A DNA stretch of 64,000 nucleotides from Paludibacter sp. (lineage in GTDB: Bacteria; Bacteroidota; Bacteroidia; Bacteroidales; Paludibacteraceae). Position numbers and translations under genes: made by a program. Where the stretch lies: contig NZ_WASO01000014.1 of NCBI RefSeq assembly GCF_009712605.1, forward strand, positions 248,001 to 312,000. Direction: 5' to 3'. The notes under the pieces were generated by a model, which saw only the letters and a program-made list of their open reading frames with translations, ran no database searches and had not been told where the DNA came from. Positions 28,641-30,932 of this stretch are shown here, piece by piece; positions within the stretch are counted from its first letter, which is position 1; each line of letters opens with the position of its first letter.

Positions 28641-29825
28641 TTATCGATCTTCAGTCGAAACTACTATTCCGTTGGCCAGATAATTGTTGTTTTTCAACAA
28701 ACGACTGAGATTGTAAGTCATTATTGATCCTGATCTTGGAGTAATGGATTCAACCCGTATTTCAGTTATCCGGTTTTGTGTGTATTTGAGGCAAATATCT
28801 CCCCGGGTAAGTTGCTGCGTGGGGATGTTATACTTTTTGCGGGTCAATGCAGGTTTACAGGAACACCAGCCTTTCCCCTTTACAAAATACGGATGATCTG
28901 CCGTATTGATGTTTACGGTATGGTCGCTAAATGCAATTTTTACCATATCATCATGTGCAACAGAGTCAATCTTTTGAACAATATCAGTTACGGGTTTCAG
29001 CGTTTTCATGTCCACTGTTACTATTTTATCTCCCGTTTTTACTGTTTTGATGGATTTTGTAGTTCCGTCTGGAAGTACAATTTGTGTGTTCCCTTCTAAA
29101 CAGAAGGAAATATAGCAGTATCCGGGCGTAATTGTAGTTTTTCCGGTAACCAGATCGATCAGGCCGGTAATGCATTGGTTTTTATCCCAATTAATATCTC
29201 CTGAAGCCTGAAGATACGGATGACCGTTCGTGGAATTGATTTTGTTGGCATTTTTATAAAGAATAGTGCTTGTACAAAGTGTATCGGTCTTGGCCGCTTT
29301 AATTAATGCTTTAAGCGCAGCTTGCCGGGAAGTGTATTTTAGTGTGTTGACAGATGCTACGTTGAACATGTGAGCACTGAATGCCGATGCGTCAATAAGG
29401 CTGTTAATCTGGTCTTTGGTGAGTAACGTAGTTCTTGGCACAGAGATAGATGGATATAAACCGGCTGTCGAAGAATTCAGAAAAACGGGGAAAGAGTCAT
29501 ACAGGATTGTTTCAGCCCAGTCTATTTTTACTTTATAGCTAATGCCGAAAGAAATGCCATCGTTCCATTTTCCGATGCCTGTGCTGCAAGGGGAAATGTG
29601 AGCGTTAAAGTAATCTTCCGTCATGTTGTTTCTGGAAAGGAAGAGTTGTTTCCAGACATTGAAGTAGTTCAGGCATGTATCGCTGGTGCCGAATAGGTCA
29701 CTACAAACTATTGGGTCAGTCTGCATGGCATAACGGGAACAATCGCATTTGCGGGTTGTATATTCAGTAATGGTGCATGATCCCAGAAAGAAGATGCCAA
29801 TGACGAAACCAATCAATTTCTTCAT
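28641..29825 (-). CDS. Lipoprotein with C-terminal Hint (Hedgehog/intein) domain
   Basis: This 394-residue protein has a lipobox (FLGSC, Cys17) and an unknown N-terminal region to about residue 240. A Hint domain from Cys242 to the end follows (genomic 28641-29102). It shows CLEGNTQIVLPDG (the nucleophile Cys and first block), the TADH motif at 308-311, and YNLSRLLKNN..NYLANGIVV as the last block. The usual final His-Asn of inteins is absent, so it cannot splice like an intein. Hint domains cleave or transfer the protein before their Cys by an N-S acyl shift. The role here is unknown. It is encoded 19 bp after a small lipoprotein gene and has a truncated relative at 30660-30932. Confidence 0.75.
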   Translation of the reverse strand: MKKLIGFVIGIFFLGSCTITEYTTRKCDCSRYAMQTDPIVCSDLFGTSDTCLNYFNVWKQLFLSRNNMTEDYFNAHISPCSTGIGKWNDGISFGISYKVKIDWAETILYDSFPVFLNSSTAGLYPSISVPRTTLLTKDQINSLIDASAFSAHMFNVASVNTLKYTSRQAALKALIKAAKTDTLCTSTILYKNANKINSTNGHPYLQASGDINWDKNQCITGLIDLVTGKTTITPGYCYISFCLEGNTQIVLPDGTTKSIKTVKTGDKIVTVDMKTLKPVTDIVQKIDSVAHDDMVKIAFSDHTVNINTADHPYFVKGKGWCSCKPALTRKKYNIPTQQLTRGDICLKYTQNRITEIRVESITPRSGSIMTYNLSRLLKNNNYLANGIVVSTEDR

Positions 29826-29844: not shown

Positions 29845-30255
29845 TTATTGGCGTTTTAATTTATAGCGGTCGATGTGCGTATCTGATGTTGCTGAACGAT
29901 AATCTTTTGATATTTCAATCGAGTCATTCTTAATTTTGATTTTGTATTTCCCGCCAAGTATTAGCGATCCGTCAAAATTGGCTGTCCATGCGCATTCATT
30001 CGTAAAAATAATAGTGTCGCCAATAATAGAGTAGGTGCCTTTGCAAAGTGCAGGGTAGTATGGTTTGCTGCTTGAGCCCGACCACGTGTTACCCGAAAAC
30101 CGAAGGGTTACGGTTGAAGTGTCTGTCGGTTGCCAGATTATCTCTCTTTTGAAAGAGCCTTTATAGGTGCCATCAGCAAACGTATAGTTTTCTTGTATGG
30201 TACTGCAACCCCAAACGCATACAATTAATGCTAATGCCAACATGAATCTTTTCAT
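29845..30255 (-). CDS. Small lipoprotein, function unknown
   Basis: This 136-residue protein has a lipoprotein signal peptide (MKRFMLALALIVCVWGC). The remainder is beta-rich, with a lipocalin-like look (FADGTYKGSF, TVTLRFSGNTWSGS, GTYSIIGDTIIFT, GGKYKIKIKND). Such small beta lipoproteins are common in Bacteroidota; no function can be given. It lies 19 bp before the Hint lipoprotein gene on the same strand, so the two are probably made together. Confidence 0.65.
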   Translation of the reverse strand: MKRFMLALALIVCVWGCSTIQENYTFADGTYKGSFKREIIWQPTDTSTVTLRFSGNTWSGSSSKPYYPALCKGTYSIIGDTIIFTNECAWTANFDGSLILGGKYKIKIKNDSIEISKDYRSATSDTHIDRYKLKRQ

Positions 30256-30659: not shown

Positions 30660-30932
30660 TTAAATTATCACCGGTGTTGATGTAACAACGGTAATATGGT
30701 TGCTATAATACTCCTGACGAACCAGATCCTGTGTCAGAAAAAGTTTTTCCCACATGGTGCGATAAGCCGCATTGGTATCGATGTCGCAAGCCATTCTTGT
30801 GGCGGAAGAATCTGCTACAGCCGGTTTTAATGCTCTTTGGTAGCGATATTCTTTTAATACCAGCAACGCAAGCACCAACACACAGGCCAGAAAGCCTAAT
30901 AACCATTTAGTGACTTTTGTTTTCATATGCAA
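30660..30932 (-). pseudogene. Truncated relative of the Hint lipoprotein N-terminus
   Basis: This 90-residue frame has one membrane segment (WLLGFLACVLVLALLVL) and then MWEKLFLTQDLVRQEYYSNH, which matches the Hint lipoprotein around residues 58-76 (VWKQLFLSRNNMTEDYFNAH) in spacing and residues. It stops shortly after, where the larger protein continues for 310 residues, and lacks the lipobox. It is either a decayed copy or a small protein in its own right with a shared N-terminal module. It is 48 bp before the DUF2905 gene. Confidence 0.6.

Follow-up and report, generated by a model that had tools for sequence, protein, structure and literature searches.

A lipoprotein gene of Paludibacter sp. 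raises the question of what a Hint (Hedgehog/intein) domain without a splicing C-terminus does at the end of an exported protein. The gene lies in a window of 64,000 nucleotides (the whole stretch of DNA analysed) and encodes a protein of 394 residues, P0001, whose parts are listed in Table 1. A sequence-only reading had placed the gene at 28641–29825, which is exact as open reading frame coordinates, leaving its minus strand unstated. The landmarks that it had named, namely lipobox Cys17, Cys242, TADH at 308–311 and the terminal LANGIVVSTEDR, were all found in the translation. The gene is present as a single copy in the genome, and its orthologues in two congeners are 86–88% identical in the Hint part; one of these apparently corresponds to the public Bacteroidota metagenome-assembled contig JAUZOL010000044.1. 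The dN/dS ratio against one orthologue is 0.17 overall (0.18 for the N-terminal part and 0.16 for the Hint domain). Given this ratio and the conservation in congeners, we consider the gene real and under constraint. Scanning for promoters and terminators yielded no more sites than in shuffled sequences.

Table 1 Features of the Hint lipoprotein gene and its upstream neighbour, in window coordinates.
Feature	Position	Strand	Basis
Complete gene; 394-aa lipoprotein ending in a Hint (P0001)	28641..29825	minus	Open reading frame; orthologues L001/L004, L005
Signal peptide and lipobox FLGSC, residues 1–17; Cys17 is the putative lipidation residue	29775..29825	minus	Sequence; lipidation predicted
Cargo domain, residues 18–241	29103..29774	minus	Hint-less stand-alone lipoprotein homologues L116, L117, L118; no Pfam family
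Cys242, Hint Cys1; predicted cut Phe241/Cys242	29100..29102	minus	Invariant in 14 bacterial Hints; end of L116 matches
Hint domain, residues 242–394	28644..29102	minus	AlphaFold pLDDT 93.6; Z 24.2 to 6Y75; profile search
AXH-like stretch, residues 247–349	28779..29087	minus	PF08517 63 bits (cut-off 33); ataxin-1 2.9e-11
Block B TADH, residues 308–311 (Thr308, His311)	28893..28904	minus	Neither Thr nor His varies among 14 bacterial Hints
Last block ANGIVVSTEDR, residues 384–394	28644..28676	minus	Ser-Thr at the His-Asn positions of phage relatives
136-aa small lipoprotein gene, possible partner, 19 bp upstream	29845..30255	minus	Next to the Hint gene in the 3 genus members that have it; missing in the other 5

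That a Hint domain extends from Cys242 to the C-terminus was borne out by both profile matches and the predicted fold. Hint-type Pfam models matched residues 240–389 (Intein_splicing 23, Vint 22.7, PT-HINT 20.5 and Hint 18.3 bits), as the sequence-only reading had expected, but every one of these scores lies under the model's own cut-off, whereas the AXH model exceeds its cut-off. Structure prediction agreed with the expected fold (Foldseek 8e-11 to Hint). A search of genome contigs for a deep alignment of P0001 returned a single relative and viral scans with single Hint queries zero to two relatives each; the alignment used for the fold model consists of phage relatives from IMG/VR. The resulting AlphaFold model of the Hint domain (pLDDT 93.6, pTM 0.88) matches BIL domains, inteins and Hedgehog with Z scores of 15–24, among them Tetrahymena BIL2 (6Y75; Z 24.2 by VIA, 1.4 Å over 147 residues) and Hedgehog (1AT0; Z 18.4). 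The best 50 of 119 structural matches with Z of at least 2 are all Hint, mainly inteins and BIL domains, and AXH is absent from these 50; with the list taken up by such domains, its absence speaks neither for nor against a structural match to AXH. A profile built from 14 bacterial Hints retrieved Tetrahymena BIL2 (7.5e-20), a BIL domain of C. thermocellum (2e-11), the archaeal RadA intein (8e-8) and Hedgehog (1e-3).

Across these 14 divergent bacterial Hints, invariance is limited to five columns: Cys1, Thr and His of block B, and the Asn-Gly of the last block. Three of them are catalytic (C1, T67 and H70 in alignment numbering), and the chance that three named columns fall among five of ~120 is ~4e-5 if invariance is unrelated to catalysis. 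P0001 has both the nucleophile at position 1 and the block-B TxxH (Cys242, Thr308 and His311). The intein-type terminal His-Asn and the C-extein Cys, Ser or Thr at +1 are absent; the protein ends VVSTEDR, with Ser-Thr in place of His-Asn, confirming the sequence-only reading on this point. Except for L022, none of the 14 bacterial Hints ends in His-Asn, and the F-block His is lost too; the His-Asn terminus is present in most complete phage relatives. Judged by these residues, the pattern is that of a retained N-terminal acyl shift and a lost C-terminal cleavage, as in described B-type BIL domains, which carry the intein motifs minus the C-terminal one, occur in variable exported bacterial proteins and have been reported to cleave at their N-terminus (PMC7765530). 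By description alone, P0001 resembles them in having intein motifs without the C-terminal one and in being accessory and exported; it differs in having no C-flank and a cargo that ends naturally at the cut. Compared with A-type BIL domains, which include its closest solved fold, Tetrahymena BIL2 (6Y75, 6TMM), P0001 lacks the conserved His-Asn end and the C-flanking part. The losses of the His-Asn end and the F-block His would also fit a catalytically dead Hint persisting only as a folded binding domain, and AXH offers an example of a member of this subgroup surviving in such a role. We consider this unlikely for P0001: the 14 divergent Hints show no variation at Cys1, Thr or His, and AXH has lost or eroded precisely these residues. 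From the residues kept, it is sensible to predict cleavage before Cys242 but no splicing, and we infer that P0001 cleaves itself.

The prediction is strengthened by the N-terminal part, which had been described as having no known function. Its membership of a separate lipoprotein family was missed in that description. Searching with the conserved motif of the cargo identified stand-alone homologues of 222, 233 and 247 aa (L116, L117 and L118) in other Bacteroidota families, all without a Hint domain. The cargo matched no known family in Pfam or NCBIfam, and the full-length model has a pLDDT under 50 across most of this part. The end of L116, DLVTGDCEINEGVCVIID (…GVCVIID, then stop), aligns with DLVTGKTTITPGYCYISF of P0001 (…GYCYISF), which is followed directly by Cys242, and the C-termini of L117 and L118 lie one residue short of the L116 end. 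A redox switch involving Cys237, which lies five residues ahead of Cys242, was considered and rejected, Cys237 being conserved also in the Hint-less homologues.

Most other bacterial members of the Hint family carry a different cargo, being composed of a signal peptide, an NADase_transloc domain (PF25302) and a C-terminal Hint of the same type; some of these fusions have a lipobox and some do not. Stand-alone NADase_transloc proteins (L216, L217, L220 and L223) end 5, 5, 6 and 8 residues past a shared Phe, and in most fused ones Cys1 is reached 5–7 residues past it. Two unrelated cargos, as aligned here, naturally terminate at about the predicted Hint cut, which makes a self-removing C-terminal module the simplest mechanism. 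This suggests a scarless module whose cut would restore the natural C-terminus of the cargo, and the Hint domain seems built for clean self-removal. A fusion at the cargo end could also merely reflect where the fusion arose, which counts against the cleavage reading.

Two further observations concern the cargo. A 193-aa protein (L012, 1303–1884) consists only of a signal peptide and a Hint domain, and the open frames of two other loci (L014 and L015) are comparably short and likewise without cargo; all three look like cargo deletions that retained the Hint domain. In the window, a small open reading frame at 30660–30932 on the minus strand repeats the cargo motif (DTNAAYRTMWEKLFLTQD…EYYSNHI), and a similar 86-aa frame (L029) is found in a genus member without the Hint gene (G078). 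The small frame may encode a short protein that is conserved, or be what is left of a cargo paralogue.

The sequence-only reading had gone further, proposing that the lipid-anchored part is released from, or linked to, another molecule on the cell surface. The residues for the N-terminal half-reaction are indeed kept; the surface site and the linkage found no support. Surface lipoproteins of Bacteroidota carry an acidic export signal after the lipidated Cys, which the TITEY following Cys17 does not resemble. Because a cluster of acidic residues is absent at this position, the periplasm is the likelier location of P0001. As for linkage, the chain ends about three residues past the last Hint strand, without a region that could recognize an adduct. 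Hedgehog is the obvious comparison: both proteins have a C-terminal Hint after an exported domain and no His-Asn end, and N-terminal cleavage is expected in both, but P0001 lacks the sterol-recognition region and the Hedge domain, and the sequence similarity of Hedgehog to the P0001 Hint family is weak (E 3e-4 to 1e-3).

A Hedgehog-like transfer, in which a specific molecule (lipid, glycan or amine) attacks the thioester and is conjugated to the cargo C-terminus, would be in keeping with the retained residues, which are the same as those of Hedgehog, and with the structural match noted above. It could also give a role to the small upstream lipoprotein, whose gene always lies beside the Hint gene in the genus and which might present the nucleophile. 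The Hint lipoprotein gene is accessory (3 of 8 sampled genus members), and the 136-aa lipoprotein, which matches no Pfam family, shows the same pattern of three presences and five absences; for independent genes such agreement is expected once in 56, shared ancestry ignored. The small lipoprotein is thus a possible partner. Transfer nonetheless strikes us as improbable, given the missing adduct-recognition region, the occurrence of the same Hint behind an unrelated cargo, whether or not a lipobox is present, and the plain C-terminus of the stand-alone cargo homologues.

The strongest relative of the Hint part had been overlooked: it is the AXH domain of ataxin-1 and HBP1. AXH (PF08517) is the top Pfam match of P0001 (63.1 bits, gathering cut-off 33, E 4e-17), and phmmer with P0001 alone against the PDB also returns AXH first (ataxin-1, 2.9e-11). 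Nine prokaryotic and phage Hints, mostly of the GW[CS]S type, were combined in a profile that reaches ataxin-1 at 1.4e-15 and HBP1 at 1.1e-12; each of the 27 sequences retrieved up to 1e-3 belongs to AXH or to Hint/intein. A single phage Hint used as query ranks HBP1 (2.1e-11) and ataxin-1 (2.6e-9) above all Hints in the PDB. At E 0.01, the AXH model matches 21 and the Hint model 20 of the 23 structurally aligned Hints, and one protein (L006) passes both cut-offs over the same residues. Bacterial and phage Hints exceed the curated cut-off of PF08517, so automatic annotation may label bacterial Hint proteins 'ataxin-1 AXH'.

The P0001-type Hints and AXH have the motif GW[CS]S..P..T...GD[VI]C in common, and the signal is distributed unevenly along the domain. 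With a phage-only profile, ataxin-1 scores 54.9 and HBP1 52.8 bits (best of 4000 shuffles, 5.5). The half from DHP to GDVC alone gives 41–53 bits (best shuffle, 8.5) and the first half of AXH alone 11–13 bits in the same register (best of 4000 shuffles, 5.8). In these alignments the signal is mostly in the second half, the first being weaker yet consistent. Convergence, or similarity limited to one short motif with AXH an unrelated OB fold, would account for the ~40 residues between DHP and GDVC holding most of the score, for the published description of AXH as OB-like and for its absence from the best 50 of 119 structural matches. We regard this as very improbable, since the first half beats 4000 shuffles in register, profile–profile alignment with hhalign spans 107 columns (3e-19), HBP1 keeps Cys-Phe-x-x-Gly-Thr exactly at the Hint start, and the published AXH strands b1, b3, b6, b7 and b9 (PMC3796545) coincide with strands of the Hint model.

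Relationship is not identity. HBP1, with its CFLKGT start and KLDHP, keeps Cys1 and the block-B His and has lost the Thr; the ataxin-1 alignment starts one residue past Cys1, with VEYP at the DHP block. Neither match extends beyond GDVC: AXH is missing the final third of the Hint domain and most catalytic residues, and it is a nuclear, animal domain. P0001 has no such stop, its full Hint running to residue 390; it is related to AXH and is itself no AXH domain. From these alignments, AXH is probably a Hint domain shortened by its C-terminal third and decayed. The hydrophobic groove residues of ataxin-1 (I580, I581, A584, V591, L594, F599, S602, L609, F652, W658, L672 and L686; PMC3796545) map to residues 248–348 of P0001, in a register that pairs ataxin-1 F575 with Leu243, W658 with Trp320 and C683 with Cys345, and AXH helix 1, unfolded in one chain of 1OA8 (PMC3796545), maps to a Hint strand (267–272). 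We infer from this mapping that the groove may be the slot of the lost C-terminal strands. The published descriptions consulted here present AXH as an OB-like, 'chameleon' fold and give no ancestry for it. Our search of open-access papers found none joining AXH with inteins or Hint; the link could already stand recorded elsewhere.

The direction of descent would be from Hint to AXH, because AXH lacks pieces present in widespread Hints. On the sequence comparisons made here, the subgroup of P0001, GW[CS]S...GD[VI]C, is the closest known relative of animal AXH. IMG/VR contigs resembling marine phages are rich in Hints of this kind (104 relatives in one scan). Such phage Hints (for example L032, L039 and L042) are 28–38% identical to that of P0001, from which they differ in mostly having a His-Asn end and in occurring sometimes several per long protein, or at the protein end. 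Two of the phage proteins (L039, 1603–4353; L042, 1576–4848), of ~900–1100 aa, contain several tandem Hint-like domains, some with and some without the His-Asn end. Outside the genus, the closest bacterial relative of the P0001 Hint (42–45%) is that of L022 (1–1980), a long protein (1385-aa open frame) whose C-terminal AXH-like Hint ends in Val-His-Asn. Trees place AXH with phage L039/L041 (support 95–96/83–84) on long branches. Approximately unbiased (AU) tests reject placement neither with the Bacteroidota Hints (p 0.20) nor with the NADase group (0.22), and reject placement with Tetrahymena BIL2 weakly (0.036). Given the long branches, the phage Hints L039/L041 mark a candidate donor, and the other placements that are not rejected are candidates too.

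The explanation that we favour, and hold to be reasonably probable as a whole, is a Bacteroidota lipoprotein domain joined directly to a Hint whose chemistry is reduced to the N-terminal half-reaction of inteins and which frees its cargo, with AXH derived from such a Hint. P0001 would first be exported and lipidated, whereupon the Hint domain would fold and convert the Phe241–Cys242 bond to a thioester. Water or another nucleophile would break the thioester, freeing the lipid-anchored cargo with the C-terminus that its stand-alone relatives have, and the Hint domain would be discarded, most likely in the periplasm. AXH would descend from a GW[CS]S...GD[VI]C Hint by keeping the first two thirds, with loss of the C-terminal strands and of most catalytic residues. 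For the fuller proposal, in which the peptide-binding and dimerisation groove of AXH occupies the slot vacated by the C-terminal strands, HBP1 keeps the splicing nucleophile and block-B His, and the bacterial family represents the ancestral, cleavage-competent module for scarless processing of exported proteins, we see the chances as evenly balanced.

Spinocerebellar ataxia type 1 results from expansion of ataxin-1, a protein that binds its normal partners and itself through the AXH domain. Descent of AXH from a Hint by decay would give its plasticity and exposed hydrophobic groove a simple origin, and animals would hold another descendant of the intein fold besides Hedgehog. In bacteria, a self-removing domain set without a linker on complete exported domains would amount to a scarless C-terminal tag made by nature, which might also serve as a tool.
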